Assembly (NCBI RefSeq): GCF_026151205.1 | Contig: NC_087077.1 | Span: forward strand, 10,407,983 to 10,471,982 | DNA: 64,000 nucleotides | Source of the DNA: Bolinopsis microptera | Lineage: Eukaryota; Ctenophora; Tentaculata; Lobata; Bolinopsidae | Direction: 5' to 3' | Part shown: positions 20,834-63,619 of the stretch, in pieces | Position numbering within the stretch: position 1 is the stretch's first letter | Layout of the letters: each line of letters opens with the position of its first letter | Program-made: the position numbers and the translations under genes | The notes under the pieces: generated by a model | The model's input: only the letters and a program-made list of their open reading frames with translations | The model's database searches: none | What the model was told of the DNA's origin: nothing

Positions 20834-23800
20834 GTGAGTGAATTTAGTGATAGGTTGTTAAGGGTTGTTAGCATCCCTTCTTTTCTTCCAGTGAACTCTA
20901 CCAAGAGAGTAAAGTAGTTTAGTAGATTTAATCACAGACAACGAGACATAGTTTCATCATTAACCAAACAACTGTTTTTACTTTCTTTTCTTTTAAAGAT
21001 CTGCTAGAGACAAATCAAATCTCTGCAGAACTGCGTGTAGTTGTATAATTCCTTTTTTTGAGTTCTGTTCCTATCTTCAGACTTGTGTGAGATTCCCGCT
21101 ACTTACAACGCTGGGTACAGGGTCGCTTCAAAGCAAGGGCTTTACAGCGTATCCTCTCAAGACAGGTTAGTTACCAATAACCACGGAGACAGGCTTGCCA
21201 CCGTGGTGACAGGTTTGTCACCATGGTAACCTAATGCAAGTTTATAATTATGGAGACAGATTTGTCTGAATGGCGACATGTTTTTCGAACCAAATACACA
21301 GGGGATTCAATTTCGTGTTCGATTGTGTGTTCGTTTGGATGTTTGTCATGATTTCAAGAACTAACTTATCACCACTTAGAGTTGCGTACAATACAAAGCT
21401 GGTGTTCGTGTGTTCCCCCGGTTACCAGTACGATAACACCAACACTAACAAACTGGAGAAGACATGTTCAGCTGATGTTGGGGAGCTTCCTTCCTTCTGC
21501 ATACGTTAGTAAAACTTGAACTCAGCCGTTAGATGTACAATTCTGATGCATTTCAGCCGTGATTTTTTGTAATAGCGAGGAAACACAGTTTATGCCGTTT
21601 CACATGTGGTGATTTTGAAAATTATGGTCGACTTTACTTAACCTATCTCTGATCAGGAATTGAAACCAATAACGAGGGTAAGATATCTATTGCACATGAT
21701 AAGCTAGTGTCAAACTCCAAGCTGGAGGCTAATTGTTGCATCCACATTTTTTGTGAACAAATTGATATGAATCTTATTTTTTCTCAAGAAATGCACGACT
21801 GAAACGATTTAAAATAGTAGCCATAAAATCATAGTATAGGTAAAGCTCACTTAAACGAGTGACCACTGATTACTATCACTATTAGTTATTACTATAATAT
21901 TACTATTATAAAATAAATAAATAAATAAATTCTAACATTTATTACACGCTTCGACATTAAAATATACCCAACAAAGATGTACATTAAAGTCATTCAAGCG
22001 AGACTTAGTGTTGAAATAGCAAGATTATGGACTTTTTAAACAGTTCAGATTTTATGAACAAATATTTGTATGAAGTTACCAAAATTATGCACTTTCATAT
22101 CAGTTCAGACATTATGGACAAATATTAGAAATATTATCAAAAGCTAGTTGGAAATAAAACGTCTTTAGGGCATTTTTAAAACATTCTACAGATGATAATG
22201 ATCTCACTGAGTAGGGTAGTTCATTCCAAATTTTTGGTCCACAAAACATAAATGCAGCATCTGTTCGTCTGAAATGAGGAGCAGGAGGAACTTTCAACAA
22301 ATAAAAGTCATCATCTAGTCTGGAACTTCGTCTTCGTACTTCCCTTAGATTGACGTGTCCTTGTAAGTACTGAGGGGCTATGTTATTAAGACACTTGAAG
22401 ACCAGAAGTGATATTTTGAACTTAATTCTGAACCGAACAGGCAGAAAGTGGAGCTTTTTGAGGTAAGGCATGATAGGTTCACGTATCTTTTTTCCGTAAA
22501 GACCAAAGATAAATCTAGCAGCATTGTTCTGTATCTTTTGTAGCTTATGGAGATTCTTTTCTGTTATACCATAATAGACTGAGTTGCAGTAGTCTATGAA
22601 ACAGAGGATATTGGAGTGAACTAACTGAACTTTTAGGTCATGGGAAAGCTTCGAACCGATTCTTGCTAAGTCCCTTTGATTCAAATAACATACTTTGGAG
22701 ACAGCATTTATTTGAGAGTCCAGATTCATTTGGTGATCGAAAAGGAATCCCAGGTTCTTGGCCTTGCTAACAGGGCAGATTGAGAGGTCTCCTAAATCCA
22801 TTGTCTGGATTGGGCTGACATATGGACCTATATCAATGAACTCTGTTTTTTCATCATTCAGTTTTAGGAAGTTAACTGTCATCCATTGCTTTATCTCCAG
22901 AAAGCAATTTTTCACAGCTGTTAAATCAGGATTAGAACTGTGAACATCAAAAGTAAAGTACACCTGTGTGTCATCTGCATACAAATGTATCGAGAAACCA
23001 TATTTTGTGACAATTTCTTCAAGATCTCTGGTATACAATATGAACAGTAGTGGTCCTAAAATGGATCCTTGAGGTACACCAATATCCAGATAGCCTTCAG
23101 AAGATGTGGCTTTTTTTACTTTAACCTTGAATGTGCGATTATTAAGGTAACATTGTAACCAGCTGAGTGCTAGTTCTGTAATACCATACGCATTCTTGAG
23201 TTTCGTAAGAAGGAGGTTATGGTTTATGGTGTCGAAAGCAGCTGATAGATCTAAGAGTAGAAGCACAACATTCGATTTGCTGTCAATCATCATTAGAATA
23301 TCATTATGTATTTTGGTAACTGCAGTTTCACAACTATGGAATTTTCTATAGCCTGATTGATATGGGGAAAACAGGTTGTTGACATCAGCATATTCATTTA
23401 ATTGGCAATGAACTACTTTTTCTAGTATTTTGGACAGATAAGTTAGATTGCTAATCGGTCGATAGTTTTTCAGCTCATCAACATCTAAGGTAGGTTTCTT
23501 GAGTCCAGGCCTAATAGATGCTTCTTTTAGGGCAGATGGAAACTTTCCGACTCTTAGTGATTCATTCACGATGTAATGGATGATTGGGAGAAGCTCGGGT
23601 AAGCAGTTCTTGAAGAGCCACATTGGTATGACATCGAGTACGCTTGATTTATTGGGAAGACTCTTAATTAAGGTTTCAAGATCTGATAATGAGACTTCCT
23701 TAAACTGATTAAGTCTACACTTTGCATTATCTATCGAAGTAGAGTCCTTGGTACCTTGACCGTTTAGGGAAGTGTTTTGAATTTCCTTCTCAATATTAGA

Positions 23801-26800: not shown

Positions 26801-29800
26801 GGCTCCCTCGCTAGCTCTGTGGCTCAGATACGCTTCCGCTCCTCAGTTATAACGCTATTCAATATTATTATTGTCATCGTAGCCAAGATCATTAATTTTA
26901 CATTAAGTTTTTTATGAAAACGTTAGATTATCTTGCCTTATCATAGTAAAGATTTTAGAGATTTGGAAAATGAATTGTGACATATAACTTAATGAACTTA
27001 ATAAGTCACACACATTCAAATTTCTCGTATTCAAGTTAAGATATGAGCAAGAATTTCTGTTGAATTATGTTGAACGATTGCACGCGTGTGACGTGAAGGC
27101 AATGATTTCACTAACGTGTACACTTGAGCGATTGGAGTGAAAATATTAAATAAACTTATTTTGTTGGTACCGTGTAAATAGATCTTATAAATAAATAGTA
27201 AATAGTAAATAGATCAAGATATATGGTACCGTGTAACATATATCTTGCTCAGGTCTGGAGGCGAGCCAGGAAGGAGAAACTTACTTGGTCTCAACTCAGG
27301 TTAGCAAGGAACTTATTTACTTTTAGTCTAATTTAAGTTTACTTTTTTGAGTTTTTATGCATTTTTTGCCATTGTGAAACACATAGAATATTGATTTCAA
27401 TGCAGGAAAAGAGTGTGACAGTGTCTTGTCAAGTGTTTCCGCTGGAACAGAGCAAGTACGCAAGTGTTCATTTCTTCAAGGATGATGTTAAAAAGACCCA
27501 GGATCCTGGTTAGACACTTTTAACAATAGACATATTTCAGATATCATATGACTGATATTCACTCATTGCAAATAATCAAATTAATGATCTATATTTAAAG
27601 ATCAGCTTTCTTTCACCATGACTCTATTTCTTCCTTTTCAGTGGTCCTGGTAGCATCAAGTGACCACAAGTCCGCTAGTTACACCGTCCAAGAAGAGGGA
27701 ACCTGGCGGTGTGGTCTAGCTGACGACATCACGGGGGACATCAACAAACCTGTCTCTGATGCTGTCGTCTCCAAACTTAGTGAGTGTTTTTTGTGTTTAG
27801 TAGTCGCTGTCGCCTCCAAACTTAATGAGTGTTTTGTGTGTTTAGTAGTCGCTGTCGCCTCCAAACTTAATGAGTGTTTTGTGTGTTTAGTAGTCGCTGT
27901 CATCTCCAAACTTAGTGAGTGTTTTGTGTGTTTAGTAGTCGCTGTCATCTCCAAACTTAGTGAGTGTTTTTTGTGTTTAGTAATCGCTGTCATCTCCAAA
28001 CTTAGTGAGTGTTTTGTGTGTTTAGTAGTCGCTGTCGTCTCCAAACTTAGTGAGTGTTTTGTGTGTTTAGCAGTCGCTGTCGCCTCCAAACTTAATGAGT
28101 GTTTTGTGTGTTTAGTAGTCGCTGTCATCTCCAAACTTAGTGAGTGTTTTGTGTGTTTAGTAGTCGCTGTCATCTCCAAACTTAGTGAGTGTTTTTTGTG
28201 TTTAGTAATCGCTGTCATCTCCAAACTTAGTGAGTGTTTTGTGTGTTTAGTAGTCGCTGTCATCTCCAAACTTAGTGAGTGTTTTGTGTGTTTAGTAGTC
28301 GCTGTCGTCTCCAAACTTAGTGAGTGTTTTGTGTGTTTAGCAGTCGCTGTCGCCTCCAAACTTAGTGAGTGTTTTGTGTGTTTAGTAGTCGCTGTCATCT
28401 CCAAACTTAGTGAGTGTTTTGTGTGTTTAGTAGTCGCTGTCATCTCCAAACTTAGTGAGTGTTTTGTGTGTTTAGTAGTCGCTGTCATCTCCAAACTTAG
28501 TGAGTGTTTTTTGTGTTTAGTAATCGCTGTCATCTCCAAACTTAGTGAGTGTTTTGTGTGTTTAGTAGTCGTTGTCGTCTCCAAACTTAGTGAGTGTTTT
28601 GTGTGTTTAGCTGTCGCTGTCATCTCCAAACTTAGTGAGTGTTTTGTGTGTTTAGTAGTCGCTGTCGCCTCCAAACTTAGTGAGTGTTTTGTGTGTTTAG
28701 TAGTCGCTGTCATCTCCAAACTTAGTGAGTGTTTTGTGTGTTTTGTGTGTTTAGTAGTCGCTGTTATCTCCAAACTTAGTGAGTGTTTTGTGTGTTTAGT
28801 AGTCGCTGTCATCTCCAAACTTAGTGAGTGTTTTTTGTGTTTAGTAATCGGGAGGTCGCTGAAAATAACGGGTTCTTTTCATCTTTTGTGTGTTTTTATT
28901 ACTTCGCGGCGAATGTTTTCAGACAATAGAATAGTGATAAAGCAGTAGTTCACATTTTTAACTAGAACTGTCGAGTAGTGTACTGCGTAGATACAGAAAG
29001 TAGCTATTGTTGATGTTAAGACAATGGTAGACCTGGAGAGGACAAAGGAAATATCCGTCACAACTCTCAAATTATCGTCACAACTCACCTCTAATCAACT
29101 GATTATTAAATACTTTTCAAATTTTACAGAGTACAGCAATAGATGAATATAAAATAGAATCGTTCAAAATATCGCCCCCATCTGTAAAATATGATGGGCA
29201 CCCAAACACGGTAAACACATAGTGAACTATGTCCGCAGTAACTTGGACCCATTACATCGAATTAATCTAAATCCAAAAATTTATGAAAAACTATTTAATA
29301 ACAAACAAATCCATGGTGAATAACTGTGGATAAAGAGTCAAAATTGGTATTTCAATACGTCAAATTCCAGATACATTAGATACAGGTCTGAAACGGTCAT
29401 TAATGTGTGAGAAGGTGTGCGGGTGAAGTGTGATATGATGTTGAAAGTATAGGAAGGTAGATAAAAAAAATTAATAAAACAAAAATAATAATAATATGGG
29501 GAGCAAAGAGACTAGGCTAGACTGTTGTTTCACTGTCCAATAAACATTTCCAGAGATGCTTAGTGACCTCAGCTTTGAAAAGACTAGTAGACACAATCTG
29601 TCTTACCTGTAAAGGGAGTCCATTCCACAGTATATGGGTTCTGTAGAAAAATGATTTTGCCAGTGGGCTATTTGAGGTACATGTGGTGTGTGAATTCTGA
29701 CTTAACTTAGGTAAAATTGATGACACAATAGACAGACTGTCGAGGTGGCAACGTCTTAGTCGAGAAGTGCCCTGATATAAAGAGAGATAGCGAGGCAGCG

Positions 29801-32800: not shown

Positions 32801-35800
32801 ATGATTCCTCTCAGGCGGTACTGAACACGTATGTGGATGGCTCCAACACGTTCACTAAGGACAGTGCGGATGTGGACGATACTGGGGCCTCCAAGTTCGA
32901 TATCACCATCTCAAAGTGAGTGCAAAATACCTTATTCTCCAAAAATTCGCCCAAATGATTTCAAATTTTTCGCCCAAATTTTTCGCTCAATATAATAGAT
33001 CACAAATTTTTGGGAACTAAGGTATGCAAAATATGCCAAATATTCAGTATTTGATCACCGGAATACTAAACAATCTAAATTTCGTCGAGGAACACACATA
33101 CTATCCGGAATGAGATGATCAGTTGTACAATGTACACGAGGCCACGTAGCTGGAGTTATGAGTGCTTAACAAATAATTATGATAATAAATAAATAAAATA
33201 AATTACAAAATCGCTCCCAGGACCAACACATGGGCAAGGTGTGGTATGTACATATTGAGTGAGGGACTCCATTTCTACTCCGATCCCATCAGGATTTATT
33301 ACAGAGGTGAGGTTAACTTTCTTATATTAAAAAACCGATAATTGATACCAAATTGTTGATTGTTCTGAACACTTGAACAAAAACTTCAATCGTTTGTGAG
33401 TCTCGTGCCGCTAAGTTACCCACCACTGAGCTAAACCATCTAACTATGTTCCCTGATTTACAATTTAACGATTAAAATGTTGTTGTCTCACAGAGAGCAC
33501 TGTTTCCCCTGACTATCTCGTCCTGCTGGCTGGAGGGAGCAGCTCCTTCACTCTTCAAGTGTATGGTGACCCCTCTCAAGTGACCGCCTCCAACCCTGAA
33601 ATTCAGACCAACAAGATTACCGACAAATCGTCCGACTGGTCAGTCTTCTTATAATTATTTTAATACTCACACAATTAACACAATTTATTAGCTTGGCCAT
33701 GCTCTGGTGTCCGATTTAATGCCTAAATGATTCAGATACTAACATATTTTGCATCAGCTGAATTATGAATACTTGAATATTTGGTTCTTTTGTGATAGTC
33801 AAAACGCGACAACTAGCGCTGGATGGCGACAACTAGCGCTGGATGGCGACAACTAGCGCTGGATAGCGTTAGTTGTCGCCATCCAGCGCTAGTTGTCGCG
33901 TTTTGACTATCGCAAAAGAACCGAATATTTTGACGTTTGCAAATTGCATTTTCACTCTTTTTGTGGCTATCCTTATATACAGTTGAAAAGTATCGTGGTT
34001 AATCAGTGATAATTAATAAATATACATTATGTATATTAATTATTAATGATATAATGTACAACCCACTCTTCAGGATGACCTACTACGAAGTACCAGTAAC
34101 GTCCGCCAAAACCAAATGGTACGGTCCTCTAGACTTTACTATCACCTATACCTCAGACAAGGACACGGATGTTAAGGAGACTAAACTCTATGTTACCGGT
34201 TAGGACTTGTTGATATTTTTAGTAATATTTACTAGCTATTATTTAATTCTTTGGAAATGTTTTCTTGATTCGAGACAACGTTTAATAAATATAGTATAAA
34301 TATTATAATACGATATTATAGGTGTATGTGGTGAGTGGTGAGGTTATATTAAGGTCACAAAACCTCACATCCGAGTGTTATTGTATTATCTTCTACTCAA
34401 CATACAGTTAGAATATTAAGTTACACAACTCTGCATTATACTCTGACTTGGACTCTTCCTCTTTTGCCAAAATTGTTGGTAATAAATCCGTTCATAAACT
34501 ATTATATTATATATTATGTTGCATTTAGACACGCAGGAAAACACACAATATGAGGCTTTAATGAGAGCAGCTCAAATTATTTGTTATATTATAAGTACTA
34601 TGTAGTATTGAAAGTGTTAAATATTACATTATTACATAATATAGTATCAAATATTATACACATTTAACCCCACACACACAGATGTGTCATTGAGCGCCTA
34701 CTCGGAGAACGTAGCTGCCGCTCAGGATATAGTTCTGATCTGCTCCCATGTTAACCCTCCTGTGTACAACCTGCCTTCTGTAACCTGGACCAAGGGAGAG
34801 CTGGTAATAGAGGATTCAGCCAGAGGTAATTACCGACTCACTGGTTTCTTCTAATTGCTAATTGTGGTTTATTTCCGATCATGTGCGTTTTTTTCCCGAT
34901 GGAACAAAATAATGAAATCCACAAAAACATTTTCCCATAATTTTGATCCATATACGTTCTCAAGTTGAAATCACGAATGGCAAAGACGAAACTACACTGA
35001 AGATAAAATCCGTCGAGGAATCTGACACTGGACTCTACAAATGTGCTGTTGACTTCAAAAATAAAACCGACGTTGTTATGTTTCAGAAGACTTCTGACTC
35101 TGTTCAGCAAAACGTAGTCGGGGAAGGTAGGTGTTTTATTATTTAACTTATTATATCGGACGTTATTTGACTCGACATTACGTAAAAGGACATAATTCTG
35201 AGTAAACATTAAAATGGACGCCCCTGTTGGCGCCCCTCCCCTTTTAGCGCCCCTCCCTAAAATTGAACAAATAAGGTGATATTAGAGGATACGCCGGTAA
35301 AATCTCTAAAAAAGTGTGTTTATAGAGCAAAACGCGCAGTTTTGCAAAATAGTCCCACATTCAAACGACGAATTTGCGCCCCCCTAAGATGGTGCCCCCC
35401 CCCCCCCCCCCCGCACAGCGGGCCCTTCTTTACGCCACTGGTCTCCAGCGTCCGATTAATGTCCGTTCAAATAAAGTCCGATAACTCGATAAGGTAGTCA
35501 AGTTTAATTGGAGATATACTGGCGTAGCAGATATAATAATACTAGAAATTTATTACTGACCCGTTTAATTTACATATCTTACATTTTTGCAACATAACAC
35601 AGCCACAGTTTTGAGGACATTGCTTTGGTTCCATCTGCTCTGACCCCCAACAATTGTCACTGCTTATCTGATATTTACAGCCGAAACAAGTAAATTTCAC
35701 ACCTGTTACTCATTTCAGCTTATTTCTCCGACTCAGAAGCTTGGATGGGACAGCAAGTTAACGCACTGTTCCGGATATCTTGTCATGTTCATTACAGTCG

Positions 35801-38480: not shown

Positions 38481-41400
38481 GTGAGTAATTTAAAGTACAT
38501 TTTGATAAAATGCAATGACAAATCGAAGAAAAAAGCAACGTATCATTGAATCATGTTTATTAACTAACCTAGTGACAGTCGCATTTTAGGATTAGTTTTA
38601 TTCAATGCATAATGTAACTCAGACATACCTCAGGTTGTGAAGCCAACAGTCTGAAGTGGGAGAATGTAAAAACAGACCCACCACTCCCAGTAAAACATGG
38701 GGTTCAGCTAAAGTTAAACTGCGAACACGATAAAACCAACTCAGGAGGGGATGTGGCTGAATGTAAGGATGGGAAGTTAGTGCTGGTTGGTACTGAACCC
38801 CCAATCTGTGGATTTGGTAAGCAAAACCCATTATATAATTCTAAGTATAATTGTTACTATGTAACGATTATTTTTAACGGTGCAGTTGTTTAGAACGCCA
38901 GCTTTGCAATCGTAAGGTTGCGAGTTCAAATCCCGCTGTTTGCCTGGTCGTGGGGTGAGCGACGAGCGTCGTTGACGTTCAGCTAAATATTGGATTTTTT
39001 ACTAATAATTCCACCAAAATTTTACAATGTTATGGTACTATGATTTTCCTATAGCTAGGTAATTTACTTTGGCTTTCATGAACATAATTGTTGTGAATGA
39101 ATTGTGCAATCCATTATATAAATTAACCAGAATTTATTTTTAGTTTCACATGACTGCCGACCGGACAGTGTTTTATGGAATAACACTAAGACAGTGCCAA
39201 CACTGCCCGTGAAGGATGGGGAGAGAATAAAGATTATGTGTGCAGATGGTTACAAAAACAACGGCAGTGTCACAGCCACATGTGTGAATGGAAATTTAGA
39301 ACCATCTGAAAAACCAACTAGTTGCCTTCCAAGTGAGTTCCTTGAAAAAAGAGTAATTTGGCACACTAGAAAGAGACATTTGTCAGATACTATTGTACTA
39401 TAATTATAACTACAATTATAACCTATAACTACGTCCTACATGCAATAATTGTATTTAAAAACTTCCCTTGTTTGAATTGTCTCCACTTTACCAGGATGTT
39501 TTAATTTAAGCATCTATATGGAAATAAATTCCGTTTTACAGGGAGAGAAGTAACATTGTTATCTGTAACACCATCATCTGTAACACTATCATCTGTGGAG
39601 TCCTCCTCCTTGAGAAGAGGTGGAAACATCAACAACATCATTGATGGAAACAACTTACTAAAACTGATAGATTTTGGAAGAACAAAATAACAAAAAATTA
39701 GACGATGCGTTGCGCGCATGGTTTCATAAATTTGTTTTTTAATTGCCCCCCCCCCCCTCCCCTGGTCGCAACAAAATCTTCCTCTTTTCTTTAGTGTAAC
39801 AACCGTGCGGTGGTTGATTATCGCCAGTTTAGGATCCATTCCGCATATTTCACTAAAAAAATATTTCAGCGGTAAAAAGATTGCCAGGTTCAGATGAGAA
39901 GCACTTCTCGATGATATCACACTCTGTCACAATGAAGTGCTCTGCTAACGGAAACGGAACCTTACCCATTCAATGGTAAGTTGCCTCACCCAATCTCGAT
40001 ATCACCACCAAATTGTATTTCGTGTGTTCTTTCAGACTCTGGTGGTTAGATTTACGAATTAAAGTCGTCATCAAATTTATTTTTCCCCGAAAACCACTAT
40101 AAACATTAAACACCCCCTATAATAATAACCCTGAAAAAGTCACCAAATGTTACCCGTGCTCAGGAAGAAAGGTGACACCAAGCTGAGCGGGAGTAAGTAC
40201 ACGGTGACAGGAGAAGAGCCGATAGACGGTGTCTATACCTCTACCCTGGTCATCACTCAGATAACTGCGGATATGGACGGAGGGTATGCGTGTTATGTGG
40301 CCTACGAGGTCGACACACAGCTTCAGGCAGACTTTAATCTTCATGTTCTGCGTGAGTTTTATGGATATATAAAAGTATTGGGACTTTCTATTTCTGAATT
40401 CTATGATTTTAGTTAGACTTAACTGAAAATAACCGTCTCCGTTTCTAGATATCGAGGAGTTTAGCACCTCCATCCGGTACGAGAACGAAGGATCGTCTGT
40501 GTCTCTCACCTGCAAGGTATCCCAGATTGAGGATAAAGTACCCACTGTGACCTGGGACCAGGAAGGTACCACCAAAGAGGGGTGTGATACTAGCATCGTC
40601 AGAGGTAAGCTGAATCCTGAATCTTAGATCTGAGTTTAAACTCTTAACACCCCAGTTCAGGGACAAAAGGTTTTCGCGATTATTTTGTTAAAAAATCGCG
40701 ATACCGCGATTTTTAACAGACTATACATTAAACTAGACATAAAATGTGTCGCAAATAATGGGAAAAATCGAGATTTCGTACATGCCGCGATTTCCTTTTG
40801 TCCCTGAAATAAAAACAAAATATGATTCTCAATATTATCATATACTCACTACTATTCAAAAAGGACTCCTAAAATGAAAAACTTGACTTTGTACACAAGA
40901 TATTCCAGATCTTATAATTTGCTAACTAACCAGGCGGTACCCTGGACTGTGTGCACGTGCTCACGATCACAGCACAGTTGGAACGGAGTGTGAGCTGTTC
41001 AGCGGAGTACAGAGGTCAACCTTCTCTTAAGGGACAATCCCAGAAGTCAGGAGCTGTTACTGTCATCTCGCAGCGTGAGTTTTTTTACGAGTAATTTGGT
41101 TCATACTTGACTTTCTGTGACAATGATTACAGTTATTACAATTATTACAGTTATTACAGTTATTACAATTATCACAATTATCACAATTATCACAATTATC
41201 AAAATCATCACAATTAGTACAATGATTACAATGATTACAACGATTTCAAATTTGCATTTAAAGGCGTGTGGAGCGACCAGAGCAAGGTAACAGTAGTGGA
41301 CGGGGAGACGGCAGAGTACGTGTGTTACGGGAGCGGAAACCAGAACGCAATGAGAGCAACCCTTAACTATCCCGGAAATCCCACTGTGAGTAGAAGAGGA

Positions 41401-44400: not shown

Positions 44401-47400
44401 TTTGGAAAAGCTTCATCACCTTATTTTTACTGCACGCACGCATTTTGATCGTAGTTACCGTTAACTTTCTGCCAGGTTTACGTTATCGAAGGGCAGGACG
44501 GCAAGATAACATGCATGGCATACGGACCAGACTCAGTAGATTTTACGTGGTGGTATAAACAAAATGAAGACAGCAGCGCTTTCAGCAAGCTCACCCAGGG
44601 AGGAGACTACGACATTACCAAGGTACTTATAGTTCTAACAATCAGCATACTTATAAATATCTCCGGGATTTCGACGCGGGATCATATTATCACTCAGCCC
44701 GACCCGCTGTTAGATAAACATCTCAAGGTGATATCATCCCGCCCCGGAAATTTGTATAAACCCGGCCCGCTTTTTAGTCGTAACTGATGTTTATCATTCA
44801 ATTCTCCGACTTACAATAATCAATGATACTGCTGATTAGAACTCGATAATAGTAGAACAGTTAGACGCGCGATCACGTGGGCGCGTCACGTGCGTACCAC
44901 GTGCCACCAATAGCATACGCCGAGTCTATACCACGTGACACGAAACTCGAAAGCGCACCACGTGATATGAAACATCGTAACCGTCCACTTCTTTTACACG
45001 CAAATTCCTGGGAACGTTGCCAAAGCAGCTAATTCTTGGAATTTCTCCAACGCGTGGCGTGAGAAGTTGGCGACTAGCCAGCTACCCTTGTCCGTGCCCT
45101 AAAAATAGTATTGTTTTGCTTGCTCTCCTTCCAGCTTTTGTTCCTGCTAACGTTCAAGCTATTGCTCCACTATGACAGATCGGTTTGACATTCAGATTGA
45201 TGAACTGCTTTCCAATCGTGTTCCGGACAGTACAGTTAGAGTCAACAACTGGGCTCTAAACAAATTTAATTCTTGGCTTCAGTCATCCAGATTTGCTCGT
45301 GACTTCAATGACTTTGACCAAATTCAAAAACTATTTTATCACTCTCTTCTAAAATATAAATCCCTTGTCGAAATCGCCGGAGATAATTATAATCCATAAA
45401 CACTTCACGCTCAGGGCTAAATAAATGTAATCCCTCAGCTGGCGCTTCGGGATTACATATTAACACAAAACTCGTGCGCTAGCGCGGGATGATCTGTTAT
45501 ATAAACCCTTTGCGTGGCGGGTTTATGTTATTATAATCATAGCTCTAAAGTTCATTAAAACACCCAAAGAAAACAAAGACGATATTAGGTTCCCCGACTT
45601 TTACTCTTCATTGAAAGGCTCCAAAGTTTGCTACATGGAGAAGAGAAGTGGTATCCGTAATATACCTAAGTATGCCTAAGTGGTATCTAAGTCTTAGTAT
45701 AACGATCAGCTTTCTTCTCATTGTCACTATTGACATCGAAAAAGTAAAGAATAAATAGAAAATCCCCTCCCCCCTTCAAAGATGACATTCTTCAGACAAA
45801 CTGGGATAGTACTTGTCACAAGAGGTCCTCGACCTTGACTGTAAAGACATCTGCGGCCTCCCATGAGGGTAAATATAAGTGCAAGACGAGTGATAATGAG
45901 GTAACGACTAGAGATATGGAGAAAGAAATTCTTTTGAAGGTCAGTGTGATTCATATAAGGAAAATATACTACCCTTTATTAGGACTCCAATTAAGGGCAT
46001 TCTTTTCTTTTTTTATTTTCAATCATCGTTATTTTCTCTTATTCTTATTGAGTTATTGATATTCTCGACAATGAATATGATATGTACCGCAATTTAATTC
46101 CGCATGTTATTCAGTTCCACCCGTTATGATTAATTCAAATCAATCTTATAGCAATATATTTAGCGGTATGTAACCCAGACATTTAGCGGTATGTAACCCA
46201 GACATTTAGCGGTATGTAACCCAGACATTTAGTGGTCTGTAACCCAGACATTTAGCGGTCTGTAACCCAGACATTTAGCGGTCTGTAACCCAGACATGTA
46301 GTGGTCTGTAACCCAGACATTTAGTGGTCTGTAACCTAGACATTTAGCGGTATGTACACCAGATATTTAGCGGTATGTAAACCAGACATTTAGTGGTCTG
46401 TAACCCAGACATTTAGTGGTCTGTAACCCAGACATTTAGCGGTATGTAACCCAGACATTTAGCGGTCTGTAACCCAGACATTTAGCGGTCTGTAACTCAG
46501 ACATTTAGCGGTCTGTAACCCAGACATTTAGCGGTCTGTAACCCAGACATTTAGCGGTCTGTAACCCAGACATTTAGCGGTATATGTAACCCAGACATTT
46601 AGTGGTCTGTAACCCAGACATTTATCGGTCTGTAACCCAGACATTTAGCGGTCTGTAACCCAGACATTTAGCGGTATATGTAACCCAGACATTTAGTGGT
46701 CTGTAACCCAGACATTTAGTGGTCTGTAACCCAGACATTTAGCGGTCTGTAACCCAGATATTTAGCGGTATGTAAACCAGACATATTGGACAGGTGTATC
46801 GAGTAGTTGAGTTCAAGACTGACAAAGAAGGAGAGATCACTCAGTTTGACGCTGCTTCCTTGGCGTGTATCGCCAGTTACCCCGGAGGGAAGTTTAATTT
46901 CATCAAGAAAATTGACGGAAAGGACCCTGAAATTCAGTATAGTGACTACGAGGTTGAAACAGATGTGTCAGAGGGTTATGAAGACAAATCCTTCCTGACA
47001 GACAAATGGGTATGTTAAAGCTTTAAAGGAGCACTTATCTATTTATGAATTATCTTGCTCGTTTGTTCAATTTAAGTCTAAATTTGTCAGTGAACTCACG
47101 AGGTCTGGATAATTAATTTGAAACAAAGTTACGAGCCAAATCTTTATAATTCATAATTCATGTGTTCCAGGTAGCAGCTGGGTGGAACATCCAGACGTTT
47201 GACGTTGATGATACGGGAGAGTACGAGTGCAAGGTCGAGTGGAACGGAGACGCGGCTCCTGTCAAGAAACTGGATCTGGAAATAAGCTTGGTAAGTGGAC
47301 TAGACAAGTTACTAGACAAGTTACTAGACAAGTTACTAGACAAGTTACTAGACAAGTTACTAGACAAGTTACTAGACAAGTTACTAGACAAGTTACTGGA

Positions 47401-50400
47401 CAAGTTACTAGACAAGTTACTAGACAAGTTACTGGACAAGTTACTAGACAAGTTACTAGACAAGTTACTGGACAAGTTACTAGATAAGTTACTAGACAAG
47501 TTACTGGACAAGTTACTAGACAAGTTACTAGACAAGTTACTAGACAAGTTACTAGACAAGTTACTAGACAAGTTACTAGACAAGTTACTAGACAAGTTAC
47601 TAGACAAGTTACTAGACAAGTTACTAGACAAGTTACTAGACAAGTTACTAGACAAGTTACTAGACAAGTTACTAGACAAGTTACTAGACAAGTTACTAGA
47701 CAAGTTACTAGACAAGTTACTAGACAAGTTACTAGACAAGTTACTAGACAAGTTACTAGACAAGTTACTAGACAAGGTACTAGACAAGGTACTAGACAAG
47801 TTATTTAGAATTTTAGAGTATGGCTAGGTGCCCATTTTGTCTTTGTTTGTCTTCAATTATCAATTATTTTGCGCTTTTTTCTTTCACTATCCGTAACAGA
47901 TTCTGGCAAAATGACTTTTAAAAACGTATATCATTACTTAGGTGTGCCAAAGACCGGACATAACAAACGGTAAGCTGTTAACGGATGACCCAGACACAGT
48001 GTGGATTAAGAAGGGCGAGAGTGGCACTGTGACCTGTGAGTCAGGTTTCACCCTTAGTGGGGAGAGTTCCGTTAATTGTGTTGACGGCCAGCTGAAAACA
48101 CCCACCGGTGGTTCACTGACAGCGCAATGTCTGGCGGTAAGTTAAAATGACTCCGGTAGATTTATCAGTCTTCTCGCCGTTTAGTTTAGGAAGAAGTAAA
48201 ATGTCCATGGTATTTTTGGCTAACGAGCTAATATAAAGCAGTTATCAAGGCTTCTCTCCAACCATTACTACAATAAAGAATGTGAAATTTCGGAGAACAG
48301 TCCTTAGATTTTAGCAGAATGATATCCCATCCAGGTTCCAGAGAAGAGGTGTGTGGTTCTGCCAGCCCCAACTAACGGCAGATTAAACTGTGTGATGAGG
48401 GCAGGTAACCTGGCGTGCAGTGTTGTGTGCAATACAGGTAAGGAGCTGAAATAAGGAGCCGGAATAAGGAGCCAGCTAGACCAAATTCTCACATAGTGCA
48501 TATCTTTCAGTTTCACCTCAACTACATTTTACATTTATCCGAATCTGCGGACCCGTGATGATTAATAACGAGTCATTGTCAAGTCTAACACATTTCTCCC
48601 TCTCTCCCAGGTTTCCTTATCTCTGACGCTTCTGATAACGAGTACACGTGTACAGCTAATAGTGGAGAGAACTGGGACCACGTGGACGCCACTAATCCTC
48701 TCGGCAAGACAGCCACGTGCGACAGTAAGTTGTGTGACAAAAAAGAAAGAGAAGAAAAAATGAACAAAATTTTGGAAATTTCAAAATATTATCACAAAAC
48801 TTATATAATAGTATAATAATTATCACTAAACTTATATAATAGTTTATAAGTACTGTTATAAGTTACTGTTTTCTTGAAAAATTTGTTGTTTTCTTGTATA
48901 GCAAGCAGCGTCCGCTAACTTATTGATTTTCCTACACATGCGGCCACGTGTTATAGTAAAAAAGGAGCGCGAGCGTCAAAACTTATGATTCTCTCAGAGT
49001 TGACAACGAGGATCTACACTTACACTATTGATGATCAGGACTGTTCTGCAATCAATACTGCGTACGAAAGTCAATGTGATGTGGATTGTAAAGGAGTCCT
49101 AAAGGTAGGCTGAAATTTAACAAATGTATTGTACTTCTTTCAGTGACCAATGACCTTGATTTCAGTTATAAGTGGTCACTGATACAATTACTATAAATAA
49201 ATTAACGTACATTCTGAACTGAAAATTTCTCTGAAAAATCAAGTATCCGCTGTCTACAGGAGTTGAATTGTGATGAAACTGCTGGAACAACTATCACTAT
49301 CAAGTCACTGAAAAGCAGCACGGAAGTTTTACAAGCACTTGAAGGTCTGACAGCCAGTGATAACGGGAGGAAACGCAGGCAGGCGGGATCATCTCGGTTT
49401 ACGTTCGTGTCCGATCAAAGTTCCTGCGAGAGTTCTGGATCGGCACTGAGTGGAGAGTATTGTGGTGAGTAATGGTCTGGATACTGACAATCAACAAATT
49501 TCGTTCAGTAATAACTGTTATTTTATATTGTATCGTCATTATAATATCTGAATTTGAAGTTTAAAATTAACCGAGAGGATCAATTACGAATAACTTAACT
49601 TATAAGAAACATGTTAAGTTGTAGTTTTTAACAATAATAGAGATTCTCACTATATAATCAATGCACCTTATTTCAGTTGAGTGCTCGGCTGGATACTACT
49701 CAAGTAATAACAAGTGTAAGAGATGTGCAGTTGGAGCGTACTCCAACTTACCCGGACAAACGGAGTGTACAGAGTGTACTGGAGATCTGAGCACCTTAGG
49801 AGAGGGTGCATCACACTCTTCTGAATGTATTGGTGAGTTAACCAGTGTAGTGGTGAGTTGGTGAGATAGTGAGTTAACCAGTGTAATGGTGAGTGACCGA
49901 GTTGGTGAGATAGTGAGTTAACCAGTGTAATGGTGAGTGACTGAGTTGGTGAGATAGTGAGTTAACCAGTGTAGTGGTGACTTACTGAGTTGGTGAGATA
50001 GTGAATTAACCAGTGTAATGGTGAGTGACTGAGTTGGTGAGATAGTGAGTTAACCAGTGTAGTGGTGACTTACTGAGTTGGTGAGATAGTGAATTAACCA
50101 GTGTAATGGTGAGTGACTGAGTTGGTGAGATAGTGAGTTAACCAGTGTAATGGTGAGTTACTGAGTTGGTAAGATAGTGAGTTAACCAGTGTAGTGGTGA
50201 GTAACTGAGTTGGTGATTACTAACACTCCTCCTCCTCCTCACTACTAACACTCCTCCTCCTCCTCCTCACTACTAACACTCCTCCTCCTCCTCACTACTA
50301 ACACTCCTCCTCCTCCTCCTCACTACTAACACTCCTCCTCCTCCTCCTCCTCCTCCTCCTCACTACTAACACTCCTCCTCCTCACTACTAACACTCCTCC

Positions 50401-53400
50401 TCCTCCTCACTACTAACACTCCTCCTCCTCCTCACTACTAACACACCTCCCCCTCCTCCTCACTACTAACACTCCTCCTCCTCCTCCTCCTCACTACTAA
50501 CACTCTTCCTCCTCCTCTCTACTAACACTCCTCCTCCTCCTCCTCACTACTAACACTCCTCCTCTCTACTAACACTCCTCCTCCTCACTACTAACACTCC
50601 TCCTCTCTACTAACACTCCTCCTCCTCACTACTAACACTCCTCCTCTCTACTAACACTCCTCCTCCTCCTCCTCACTACTAACACTCCTCCTCCTCCTCC
50701 TCACTACTAACACTCCTCCTCCTCACTACTAACACTCCTCCTCTTCACTACTAACACTCCTCCTCCTCACTACTAACACTCCTCCGCTTCACTACTAACA
50801 CTCCTCCTCCTCCTCACTACTAACACTCCTCCTCCTCCTCCTCACTACTAACACTCCTCCTCCTCACTACTAACACTCCTCCTCCTCCTCCTCACTACTA
50901 ACACTCCTCCCCTCCTCCTCACTACTAACACTCCTCCTCCTCCTCCTCACTACTAACACTCCTCCTCCTCCTCACTACTAACACTCCTCCTCTTCACTAC
51001 TAACACTCCTCCTCCTCACTACTAACACTCCTCCTCCTCACTACTAACACTCCTCCTCCTCCTCACTACTAACACTTCCTCCTCCTCCTCACTACTAACA
51101 CTCCTCCCCTCCTCCTCACTACTAACACTCCTCCTCCTCCTCCTCACTATTAACAATCCTCCTCCTCCTCACTACTAACACTCCTCCTCTTCACTACTAA
51201 CACTCCTCCTCCTCACTACTAACCACTCATCCTCCTCACTACTAACACTCCTCCTCCTCCTCCCTCACTACTAACACTCCTCCTCCTCCTCCTCCTCACT
51301 ACTAACACACCTCCTCCTCCTCCCCACTCCTGACCACTCCCTCCTCCTCTCCTCATACTAAACACTCCTCCCCTCCTCCTCACTACTAACACTCATCCTC
51401 CTCTCCTCCTCACTACTAACACTCCCTCCTCCTCCTCATACTAACACTCCTCCTCCTCACTCACAAACACCCTCTCCTCCTCACCAACAACATCCTCCTC
51501 CTCACTACTAACACTCCTCCTCCTCCTCCTCACTACTAACACTCCTCCCCTCCTCCTCACTACAACACTCCCTCCTCCTCCTCCACACTACCTAACCACT
51601 CCTCCTCCTCCTCACTACTAACACTCCTCCTCTTCACTACTACACCTCCTCCTCCTCACTACTAACACTCCTCTCCTCACTACTAACCCATCCTCTCCTC
51701 CTCACTACTAACACTCCTCCTCCTCCTCACTACTAACACTCCTCCCCTCCTCCTCACTACTAACACTCCTCCTCCTCCTCCTCACTATTAACACTCCTCC
51801 TCCTCCTCACTACTAACACTCCTCCTCTTCACTACTAACACTCCTCCTCCTCACTACTAACACTCCTCCTCCTCACTACTAACACTCCTCCTCCTCCTCC
51901 TCACTACTAACACTCCTCCTCCTCCTCCTCCTCACTACTAACACTCCTCCTCCTCCTCCCCACTACTGACACTCCTCCTCCTCCTCCTCACTACTAACAC
52001 TCCTCCCCTCCTCCTCACTACTAACACTCCTCCTCCTCCTCCTCCTCACTACTAACACTCCTCCTCCTCCTCCTCACTACTAACACTCCTCCTCCTTACT
52101 ACTAACACTCCTCCTCCTCACTACTAACACTCCTCCTCCTCACTACTAACACTCCTCCTCCTCCTCCTCACTACTAACACTCCTCCTCCTCACTACTAAC
52201 ACTCCTCCTCCTCCTCCTCACTACTAACACTCCTCCTCCTTACTACTAACACTCCTCCTCCTCACTACTAACACACCTCCTCCTCCTCACTACTAACACA
52301 CTTCCTCCTCCTCCTCACTACTAACACTCCTCCTCCTCACTACTAACACTCCTCCTCCCTATAGAGGTATGCCTGATCCCCGGAGTGAACCAGGGAAGCT
52401 CGTACCCTCCTGAGGACTACACAGTTCCTGCTGGAACTACACTCACTCTCACGTGTAATACTGGATATGATCTGGAGTACAACCAGGCTGACGAGATCGA
52501 ATGTGCTGACGAGCTCCCTAAGTGCTACCGCAGGTAACTTCCTAAGTTCTACCACAGGTAACTTTCCTAAGTGGTACTGTTGATAACTTTCCTTCGTGTC
52601 TTGAAAAAAGTGTAGTGTGCAGACACTGACAGCATACAATTTTGAGCAGATGGGATTCTTATCAGCTTGTTCATAAAAAATGCGAATGTGCAGTTTGTAG
52701 AATTGATCTTTTGCCGGCGACAAGATTACCAAGGTGACCGTGTTAAGATTTTTTCTACTCATGCTTTCCTTCTGAACACGTTTGTGTAGAATAGAGAAGG
52801 AACTTTTGATTATTTGTAAGATAACATAATTAAATTAGATATCAGTACTTTTAATATCACTGAGAAGTATAGGTTTTCTCTCTCAGATGTTCTGTAGAGA
52901 GTCCAGAATACGACAACAATGGTCTGAAGAAGGTTGAGATAGGTTCCTCTTTCATTGACAAAGTTCAGCAACCTTCAGCCCTCTGCGGCGGAAGAGATGT
53001 CAAATGTACCGGGGTAAATGTTACTACAAACTTTTATTACTTTGACGTTTTACTTTTGAATATAAAAAGCCTTAATAAATATCATAATATTTTATAACAA
53101 AGACTTCAGTCCTCCATACTCTCACAGGGAAACAGCCCCTCTATTGTGCACGGGTTCCCAATAAAGGCTGTGTGTGTAGATGTAAAAGCAATGGAGAACG
53201 GGAAGACAGAGCAGATTCTCTACTGTCAAGAAAACGTCCTCTTTAGCTTCCCAGACTGCTCTGGTAAGTACACTCTGAGATCATGTCGGGGTGAATTAAA
53301 CTTAGAAAGTTTGCTTATCTTAGGACGTTGGAATGTGGATATTTTCAACGACATTTGCTTTGTATTATTTTCTGGGATATTAATGCTTTTCTTACAAAGT

Positions 53401-56400
53401 TACAACAAAGTCTTCATGTCAAATGTAACTAATAATTTATAGTGTTGTAATTAGTTTAAAATTAGAATCATACGTTATGATTCTATACTGTAAAGGCCCG
53501 AATGGGCAATTTTAAAATTTTGCATAAATGTTTTTAAAATTAAGACGATTACAGCTGTAACCAAATTATCTACTAGAATGCAAAACGGGGTGCTCTGAAA
53601 CTCAGTGGCAGTGCAATTCCGACTGTTCCTGTATAGACAATTCAAAGCGGTGCGATGGCGAAGATAACTGCAAAGTCAACTCTAATAAACCTTGGATATC
53701 AGACGAGTATGACTGTCCTGTTGATAGTGAGTCTAAAGTTGCAAATAGTGTTTATATTAGTTGCTGCTAAACTTGCTTAAAGGGATGTTTGTTTCATTTG
53801 AAAGTTGGAATTAGTCGCACTTTATTTCAAATATCTTTGTTTTTGAAATTTTGTCGTGAAATTAGACGTGTTGCAACAAGGCCTGTTTCCAAGGCGGTTA
53901 TCATGGGCAATATAACAGCATATTATGCAGCATATGCAGTTTATACGCTTATATATCCCTTACTTATCTGCTTGCTCATGTGAATGCAGGCACTTAAACG
54001 TGTCGAACAAACTGACTCAGTACAGGTAGCTTTGGGCAGATTCTCATGAACAATACAACTAAAAACACAGATGATAATTAATGTTAATTGCAATGTTTCA
54101 GTAACGGACCCGCAGGATATTTAGTTCGACCACTGCTCTGTAAATAATACGTAAAAATATGTGAATAATAATTAAATAATAAGTGAATAATATGAAACTG
54201 TTTCAGTAACGAGCCCGCAGGGTATACAGTTCGACCACTGGCAGCAGGAGGACAGTAGCATTGAGCCGGTTATATTTAACTACAATCAGGAGAAAGATTG
54301 GAAACAGTTTGCAACTTGTCTATGGCTGCAGACTTCGTACAAAGGCCCTCAGACAGTCTTTTCTTATGGGTTGGTTAATCATAATCCGCTGAGAATATAA
54401 AATCACAGTGGTTTTAGTTAACAGTTTCTTGTTGAACACTTATCGTAAGTCTAAGAGTTAGAGTTATTTGTGCACTCTTATATCGAAAATTGACAAAAAG
54501 GGGAACTTTAATTAACTCATTATAAAGCTTCAACAAATCTCCCCTAACAGAGGAAAGATAAGCATGTCAGTCCACGATCAATTGTTGGCGGTTCACTTTA
54601 ACTTTGACTCCACAATATCCACGTTTTCGAACACTGCCTCGGGTATCTCTGACGGAGACTACCACAGAATCTGTCTGTCTTGGAACAGTATTGGTGGTGT
54701 GGTGGATCTCTATTACGGCGATAGTAAGTTTTATCTTCTCTACTCTTTTATCCATTATCTACATTTTAACCCTGTAACTCCCATCCCTCCCCTCTTTATA
54801 GCATCTTTTGCATATTATTCGCCAGTCCTTGTATCAAGTCCCTTTCATTTCCCTTTATTCTTAATTCCTTTCTTTTAAAAATATAATACTTTTGGACACG
54901 AAAATCTTCGTAAAACTACATCATTAGAGCCTGTAAAAACATTTAACTTTAAGATAAGCACTCTATCAAGGAAAATTCCTTTCTTTTCCTTTTCTGAAAA
55001 AAAGTATTTTCCACCAGTGATGCACGCCGGTTCATTTTTCGCCAACCGGCGGCGGCGTGCCCAAAATGGCCCGGCGTGGCGGCGTTCGGCGGCGTGGAAC
55101 ATAATTTTGTTAAAATTTAGGTTTGAATTTCCAGGCCCACAAAAATTGTGGCGTACGTGCGTGCATGAAATAATGATGTAATAAGTGTGGTTTTTACAAT
55201 TATATTTGGTGGTTTTTACAATTATATTTAAGAAAAATCAAATTCTTAACATTGTCGTTGGACAATTTGGATCTCCTAGAGTTCAAAATCAACCCCGACT
55301 GGCTCCATACTCTTTCTATTTCCTTTCACGCCACGCCGACTTGAGAGGTATCGGCGTGGCGGCGTGTGAAAATGTGCCGGCGCGGCGGCGTCCGGCGGCG
55401 GCGTGCATCACTGTTTTCCACTGAGAAGTTGTATTTAAATAAGTATGTTGAGAGTGTGAAACATTGCTCATTATAAACCTTATTTCAGGGGACATCATAA
55501 ATGACGAGGATTTCAAGACATGGTCTGTTTCTGCTAAAACACTGCCCGCGGGAGATGTTGTTAACCTAGCCGTCGGCGGAACTGAGGCGGACAAATCAAA
55601 CAGCTTCCACGGTTTTATCAAAGATATGGTACGAATTGTTCATTCATAGATATTATCTTGGATGAGGTATCAGACTGTTTATTAAACAATAAACTTTAAA
55701 CCATATGCCTTTTTGTTATGATGATTTCTGGGACCTCCGAGTTTAACTTTCTTTTTTTTTTCAGTCGGTGATGCAGAAACAGCTTATTAAAGAAGACATC
55801 GACAACTTCAGGTACTTAAGTAAAATTAAACTCGCAGGTAATTAGGTGATAATATGTAACTAGGTGATAATATGTAACTAGGTGATAATATGTAACTAGG
55901 TGATAATATGTAACTAGGTGATAATATTATGTAACTAGGTGATAATATGTAACTAGGTGATAATATTATGTAACTAGGTGATAATATGTAACTAGGTGAT
56001 AATATGTAACTAGGTGATAATATGTAACTAGGTGATAATATGTAATTGTAATATGGTTTCTGTCCAGATTAAAATAAACTGCACTCTTTAAGAAACAAAG
56101 CGTCAACCGATGATCTTAAAATCCGCGCAACGGTATAGACATTCAAACAATGTTTATAATCCAACATTGCTACAACTTCAGATATTGTAAATTCCCTGCG
56201 GAAGACAGCACACGCATCGAATGGTCCAAAATCCTGACTCAGGCCAAGAGTAAAGCCACCAAATACTATATCATGGAGTATAACTACGGAGGCTGCTCCG
56301 CTCCAACTTGTGAAAGTAGGATTATACAAGTTATATTACAAGTTTATATTATACAAGTTTGATATGCTCACTTACTCCACAAGCTCTTGCTTCTTGCGAA

Positions 56401-63321: not shown

Positions 63322-63512
<191 letters not shown>

Positions 63513-63619
63513 AGTGAGATAGTCAACTGGGAAATTATTTTGTACATTACCAATTACAATATCATAGAAAACTGATTAACTTGGTTGAGTTGCAGGTACT
63601 ATAAAGTGAAGGAAATGTT

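Follow-up and report, generated by a model that had tools for sequence, protein, structure and literature searches.

A ctenophore intron that appears to have grown by tandem copying of its own splicing signals

A 64,000-nucleotide stretch of the genome of the ctenophore Bolinopsis microptera (NCBI RefSeq GCF_026151205.1, contig NC_087077.1; hereafter the window, C6:10407983-10471982 of the 264.65-Mb genome) contains a predicted 42-exon gene, one intron of which has apparently become at least about ten times longer through copying of its own splicing signals. This intron, the 27th, begins with an array of donor sites, continues as an array of TACTAAC branch-site and pyrimidine units and closes with a single acceptor. 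A first-pass annotation of the sequence had described one intron with its signals multiplied in the order donor, branch site, acceptor; both the in-frame join of the flanking exons and the motif arrays agree with that description. Near-neutral tandem amplification of the intron's own signals, tolerated because the copies work, is probably the best explanation. The features concerned are as follows (window positions; a slash marks an exon/intron boundary; TRF is Tandem Repeats Finder).

49677..49832, + strand: exon 27, ending ..SECI/G in phase 1 (gene model, paralog alignment)
49833..52364, + strand: intron 27, 2,532 nt (gene model, paralog comparison)
49833..50217, + strand: donor array, period 44, 14 GTGAGT (TRF, motif counts, donor scoring)
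49833..49838, + strand: predicted functional donor TTG/GTGAGT, the one strong donor at this site to preserve the reading frame (donor scoring)
50210..52362, + strand: AG-free stretch, last AG at 50208 and acceptor AG at 52363, 2,155 nt apart
50218..52358, + strand: branch-site/pyrimidine array TACTAACACTCC(TCC)nTCAC, 75 exact TACTAAC, 3 G, no AG (TRF, motif counts)
52341..52364, + strand: last unit as an ordinary-looking 3′ splice site, TACTAAC, pyrimidines, TATAG, branch A 18 nt from the intron end
52365..52533, + strand: exon 28, starting AG/GTATGC and reading into ..ECIEVCLIPG (gene model, paralog alignment)

Anatomy of intron 27

The donor array occupies 385 nt and starts directly at the coding exon end. 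About 14 GTGAGT in 44-bp repeats had been noted at first reading; the count between 49833 and 50202 is indeed 14, with 21 GTGAG within 49821-50222. TRF gives 8.2 copies of a 44-bp period over 49854-50216, and a copy at 49833 extends the array to the exon end. In the whole window GTGAGT occurs 74 times against 32.0 expected from dinucleotide shuffling. The tail of exon 27 is absent from the repeats, the best 24-mer match across the donor being 16/24. Scored against the gene's own donors, 32 of the 71 GT sites in the array (true donor counted) reach at least the 10th percentile.

The branch-site array is 2,141 bp long and ends 6 nt short of the intron end. Its base counts are C 1112, T 599, A 427 and G 3. 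Between the TACTAAC copies lie ACTCC(TCC)nTCAC tracts, in which the variable (TCC)n gives a spacing of mostly 19-31 nt. The same shuffling predicts 11.9 TACTAAC in the whole window, where 79 are found. The earlier statement that every unit holds TACTAAC and (TCC)n is slightly too strong; the 75 exact copies are accompanied by some variant units, among them TATTAAC and TACTGAC. The regular zones hold 60 TACTAAC, one TATTAAC and one TACTGAC, counted with a pattern that recognises TACTAAC and three one-base variants and to which all others are invisible. Indels cluster near 51.2-51.7 kb. We note that this indel-rich part (51200-51720) is possibly unpolished sequence and that copy counts within it are uncertain.

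A two-unit pattern of branch site plus eight pyrimidines has 53 of its 54 genome matches here and one elsewhere; the control gave 0 and 1. All 47 exact genome matches to a 20-mer of the array also lie within it, which bears on one of two observations that the first-pass annotation had said would overturn its reading, identical satellites outside introns. As far as the 20-mer tests this point, the reading stands.

The absence of AG sets the intron apart from its surroundings. Elsewhere in the window AG-free runs reach at most 148 nt on the same strand and 251 nt on the opposite strand, and in the gene's 40 other introns the AG-to-AG distance is 10-84 nt (median 23.5). Intron 27 thus has an AG exclusion zone (AGEZ), no AG being present from the candidate branch sites to the acceptor. 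The acceptor CCCTATAG ends at 52364, and the nearest candidate branch sites lie 18, 40 and 68 nt from the intron end. Given 2,155 nt without AG, every TACTAAC copy could in principle serve the same acceptor.

Gene context

The gene model (37581-58647) is a prediction in which exons 27 and 28 join in phase. Exons 18 and 36 first contained stops, and junctions 17/18 and 35/36 were placed by hand. The modelled end of exon 36 is off by one base, so intron 36 is wrong in the donor-score, array-position and duplication-overlap statistics; exons 27 and 28 are untouched by the errors at exons 18 and 36. An automatic exon finder was dropped: it matched only 18 of the 42 modelled exons to the base, and the three predictions in which it touched arrays were judged spurious.

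By Pfam the gene carries Ig, sushi, Ephrin_rec_like (GCC2/GCC3) and pentraxin domains, an animal repertoire. PF07699 (Ephrin_rec_like/GCC2-GCC3) covers residues 247-292 of the joined exons, exon 27 starting at residue 242. Exon 28 contains cysteines and is sushi-like by eye only; the profile search of the joined exons gave no Pfam match within it. A search with a 487-residue part of the gene found no protein homologue at E ≤ 0.001 among 6,878 candidates.

When exons 27 and 28 were used as a protein query against the same genome, 34 matches were obtained, some of which span both exons in one open frame. Five intronless paralog loci were fetched and four of them (L037, L038, L040 and L041) align across the 27/28 join; for the fifth, L039, a wrong frame had been chosen. 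The other observation named in advance as damaging, that exons 27 and 28 are never joined, is thereby addressed in part, since four paralogs join both. Intron 27 has GT..AG ends, a branch motif and a frame-preserving exon join, as a U2-type spliceosomal intron should. On comparative rather than RNA evidence, 49833-52364 is one intron.

Origin of the arrays

Seven other introns occupy exactly the position of intron 27, six in paralogs elsewhere in the genome (L030-L035) and one in a tandem paralog within the window:

20834..21080, + strand: tandem paralog intron, same position, 247 nt, free of donor, branch-site or TRF arrays

These introns are 119-247 nt long, hold 0-1 TACTAAC and have AG-free runs of 14-32 nt. 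Neither a donor nor a branch-site array was found in any of the seven. TRF reported two-copy repeats of other sequence in L032 and L033 and nothing in the remaining five. It is therefore most likely that intron 27 acquired its arrays in this copy of the gene. Inside the branch-site array the 15 longest exact block repeats are 76-111 bp, lying 41-1,467 nt apart. They show amplification by blocks, as unequal exchange would leave.

We infer that the ancestor was an ordinary intron of roughly 100-250 nt. Slippage or unequal exchange would have expanded its donor end into the 44-bp array and its branch site and pyrimidine tract into the 2.1-kb array, with little else remaining. That the last array unit still looks like a normal 3′ splice site counts in favour of an origin by amplification. 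Intron 27 would then be the extreme member of a class of splice-junction tandem arrays found at several other genes of the genome. Such arrays may survive because, when a splice signal is copied, both edges keep one that works.

The splicing outcome can be predicted from this arrangement. The 5′-most donor would pair with any engaged TACTAAC, and all branch points would lead to the single AG and so to one mRNA. Internal donors, if used, would give transcripts with a premature termination codon (PTC), which would be degraded. All 31 strong alternative donors (at or above the 10th percentile) run into a premature stop, 30 in the insert and one in exon 28; donor choice thus cannot diversify the protein and can do no more than produce wasted transcripts. 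Nor can the mRNA differ with the branch site chosen, since a single AG is available. The earlier suggestion that the expansion might diversify splicing is accordingly not supported.

Selection against AG in the branch-site array was undetectable by simulation, the substitutions avoiding AG no more than chance. We counted 26 substitutions in the alignable units; with strand-symmetric substitutions, zero AG was retained in 35% of runs at 20 changes and in 21% at 30. The AG-free state can therefore be explained without selection. Base pairing of the donor array with the branch-site array, which would loop the intron, was considered and rejected: complementary 7-mers number 66 against 56.0 in shuffles (P 0.145), and the duplex energy is no better than that of shuffles.

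Junction arrays elsewhere in the genome

Words typical of splice junctions were searched genome-wide on both strands as three consecutive copies 5-30 nt apart, with the reversed word as the only control. The counts are of overlapping triplets, not loci, and places are known for the first 100 matches of each word. The junction word CAGGTAAGT gave 163 matches (117+46) against 0+0 for its reverse, AGGTGAGT 677 (366+311) against 178 (69+109) and TTTTCAGG 151 (84+67) against 18 (6+12). TACTAAC gave 3,513 against 588, a figure that includes unrelated satellites and is not used as support. A 200-kb sample, made up of 20 stretches (18 at round coordinates on C1-C6 and two flanking the window), supplied single-word counts. 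In it CAGGTAAGT occurs 0 times against 2 reversed and GTGAGT 67 against 75, the donor words counted being these two and not AGGTGAGT itself; as they are no commoner than their reverses, single-word frequency does not explain the donor triplet excess. TTTTCAG is commoner than its reverse in the sample (69 against 26).

Among the matches listed, the CAGGTAAGT triplets fall at eight loci. Seven were fetched, of which four adjoin an open coding-like frame and three have no clear exon. One of the four frames encodes a homeodomain (PF00046, E 2.7e-13), one a WD40-like exon (PF24782, E 1e-4, and PF00400, E 5.6e-3, both below cut-offs), and two have no Pfam match at E ≤ 0.1. At C10:4506450-4508400 (L046 and L049) the homeodomain comes in two parts; profile positions 1-45 are followed by 20 copies of exon-end/GTAAGT, the intron end and VWFQNRRAKCKK. 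Exon and intron of this homeobox gene share TAAGTCCCTC, a possible seed of the duplication. At L029 (C2:981101-983100, minus strand) TACTAACCTCCCCTCTACCCAG/GTA is repeated at least 60 times, every copy resembling a complete 3′ splice site; the repeats extend from the locus end as far as a likely exon (169 nt), beyond which lie nine donor copies GTA[CT]GTG. The likely exon has no Pfam match above cut-off. Use of acceptors one to six copies farther upstream there would lead into stop codons. L014 carries exon end plus donor in 12 copies. Two kindred features lie in the window itself:

27761..28850, + strand: kin array in the upstream gene, 45-bp unit (19 nt of exon end plus donor), 24 copies, 21 with GTGAGT
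52517..52577, + strand: kin duplication of exon 28 end plus donor, 24 bp in tandem (TRF, duplication scan)

In the first of these every GTGAGT donor has the same phase and, read from 27642, the frame is open for 402 codons; alternative donors would add multiples of 15 amino acids, or nearly so where spacings differ.

Further repeats were seen beside these. At C8:7268823-7269127 (L047) a 37-bp unit resembles a whole mini-intron, GTAAGT..TTATTTCAG, with no clear exon beside it, and at C11:10996529-10996675 a 13-bp unit resembles an acceptor plus donor, TTTTCAGGTAAGC. Within the 42-exon gene, intron 19 holds a 23-bp array (x27, 46158-46784) that ends 9 nt before the predicted exon 20 acceptor; with two AG in each unit, it indicates that an AG-free array is not obligatory near an acceptor. 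A 12-bp array (x42, 47299-47803) lies 8 nt past the predicted donor of intron 21 and an 18-bp array (x11, 55838-56045) 26 nt past that of intron 35. Partial extra copies are present of exon 2 in intron 4 (39542-39620) and of the start of exon 32 in intron 31 (about 54100-54140). Two (GTGAGG)n arrays, with about 33 and 39 copies, are found on C6 in the window (63322-63518) and in its right flank (L010, 6567-6799). The upstream gene region carries 20-bp tandem copies of GCGACAACTAGCGCTGGATG followed by an inverted copy (33806-33900). Very long (TCC)n and TCCTCAGTCCTCC arrays lie on the same chromosome (L027, 542-3755 and 5542-8717). A dispersed 17-bp repeat similar to AAAGGGGGTACAATAGT occurs in both orientations in the left part of the window (2470, 4175, 10682 and 11223), perhaps a mobile-element repeat.

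Weighing the explanations

Several results weigh against amplification from the intron's own signals or against its belonging to a general process. TACTAAC is present in none of the 40 other introns of the gene; the amplified branch unit was thus either already unusual or improved later. Across the 106 arrays of the window and the 200-kb sample, donor motifs are not enriched at array starts (9 against 8.8 expected). Within this gene, donors coincide with duplications at a rate no higher than that of random intronic points (5/41 against 62/410, p=0.82) and acceptors at a lower one (1/41 against 64/410, p=0.018), which argues against any general targeting of splice sites. Long AG-free arrays of no known splice role also occur in the sample (693, 494, 455, 447 and 391 nt). 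Exon interiors of this gene overlap duplications at 0/400 downstream and 1/400 upstream points. We read the overlap pattern as tolerance at donors and avoidance at acceptors, in which the acceptor-side arrays of intron 27 and L029 are the odd ones. Of the gene's 18 arrays, six have their start no more than 25 nt from a donor, against 3.2 expected (P 0.074, a weak test). Most arrays in the genome seem unrelated to splice sites.

A wider claim would make 'splice-signal satellites' a regular genomic class, whose copy numbers act as fast-mutating dials of productive against unproductive splicing. It would cover donors, branch sites and acceptors amplified at many genes, including the bracketed exon of L029 and the homeobox gene. 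If it were true, intron 27 would be the limiting case, with scanning over up to 2 kb and 75 identical branch sites. We regard this as unlikely.

A splicing rheostat in this gene is a little less likely again. Decoy donors would send transcripts to PTCs and nonsense-mediated decay, the branch array would set the speed, and copy numbers would tune the amount of receptor protein. Consistent with this, 32 GT sites fall where 90% of true donors score and 31 of these lead to a PTC, and the 75 branch sites have one common acceptor; the CeRep25B minisatellite of C. elegans is, according to its abstract, over-represented near alternatively spliced regions (PMC4039745). Against it, there is no sign of selection, and the seven paralogous introns manage without arrays.

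The copies might instead have been selected to guard splicing against mutation or to gather U2AF/PTB/PCBP-type proteins, which we judge improbable. The near uniformity of TACTAAC in the regular zones fits such a role, but homogenisation of the array accounts for it equally well, and the substitutions do not avoid AG beyond chance. Buffering, also proposed at first pass, could still operate, with no sign of selection found for it. Tracts rich in C are not known as classic binding sites of U2AF, and (UCC)n, being such a tract, would be a better match to poly(C)-binding proteins than to PTB or U2AF.

Coincidence, in which an unrelated (TCC)n-type satellite expanded in the intron and only resembles splice signals, is marginally less probable still. 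Tandem arrays are abundant (15% of the 200-kb sample), L027 holds about 1,010 TCC copies, AG-free arrays reach the lengths given above, and the missing AG follows from a G-free unit. What such a satellite would not lead one to expect is a perfect TACTAAC and a suitably spaced pyrimidine tract, in an array that stops at the acceptor and follows straight on from a donor array. Nor would it account for the near confinement of the two-unit pattern to intron 27, or for consensus junction arrays outnumbering reversed controls. An assembly or polishing artefact is scarcely credible: the indel-rich 51.2-51.7 kb does look like unpolished long-read sequence, but much of the array is regular with ordered variants, and kin arrays occur at other loci.

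Relation to known systems

The closest likeness to near-neutral amplification of splice signals is found in the amphioxus mirages of the Adh3 and globin genes, described in PMC3087553 as minisatellite-like tandem copies of exon-intron boundaries at either end. Many of those copies carry AG/GT, haplotypes differ in copy number and regular splicing is reported there as undisturbed. Tandem copies at splice boundaries are common to the mirages, intron 27 and its kin arrays, and the block repeats within the branch-site array of intron 27 hint at a comparable instability of length. A mirage spans the boundary; the donor array of intron 27 starts at the donor with no exon tail, whereas, by reading of the sequence, 27761-28850, 52517-52577, L014, L043, L046 and L048 do span it. 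Intron 27 also differs in having a separate AG-free branch/pyrimidine array with 75 exact copies, as against the 3 and 6 units given for the globin mirage (PMC3087553).

A comparable layout is reported for human introns in PMC1431707, with branch sites a long way from the acceptor and an AG-free interval between the two; an AGEZ of at least 100 nt is given there for 838 of 67,334 introns, and mapped distant branch points lie up to 400 nt away. Intron 27 has 2,155 nt and 75 repeated candidate sites. Intron gain by tandem genomic duplication, as outlined in PMC4974935, similarly duplicates DNA with splice signals, but there an intron is created at a new position, whereas here an existing intron grew: its position is occupied in the seven paralogs and lacks an intron in the four fused ones. 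CeRep25B is an intronic minisatellite linked to splicing; its abstract speaks of splicing-regulatory motifs and does not mention that the donor or branch site of the host intron is copied (PMC4039745). No paper combining TACTAAC and minisatellite was found in the literature searched. In that literature the arrangement of a donor array plus a branch-site array is undescribed, mirage minisatellites being already known.

Significance

Intron 27 is a natural experiment on how a single donor or branch site is picked from numerous similar ones, and on how far the second splicing step can search for an AG. Its candidate branch sites lie 18 to about 2,140 nt from the intron end, compared with about 400 nt for the distant branch points described in humans (PMC1431707). 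The other junction arrays of the genome point to splice junctions as possible birthplaces of minisatellites. If that is true, intron length, and possibly splicing efficiency, would evolve fast.

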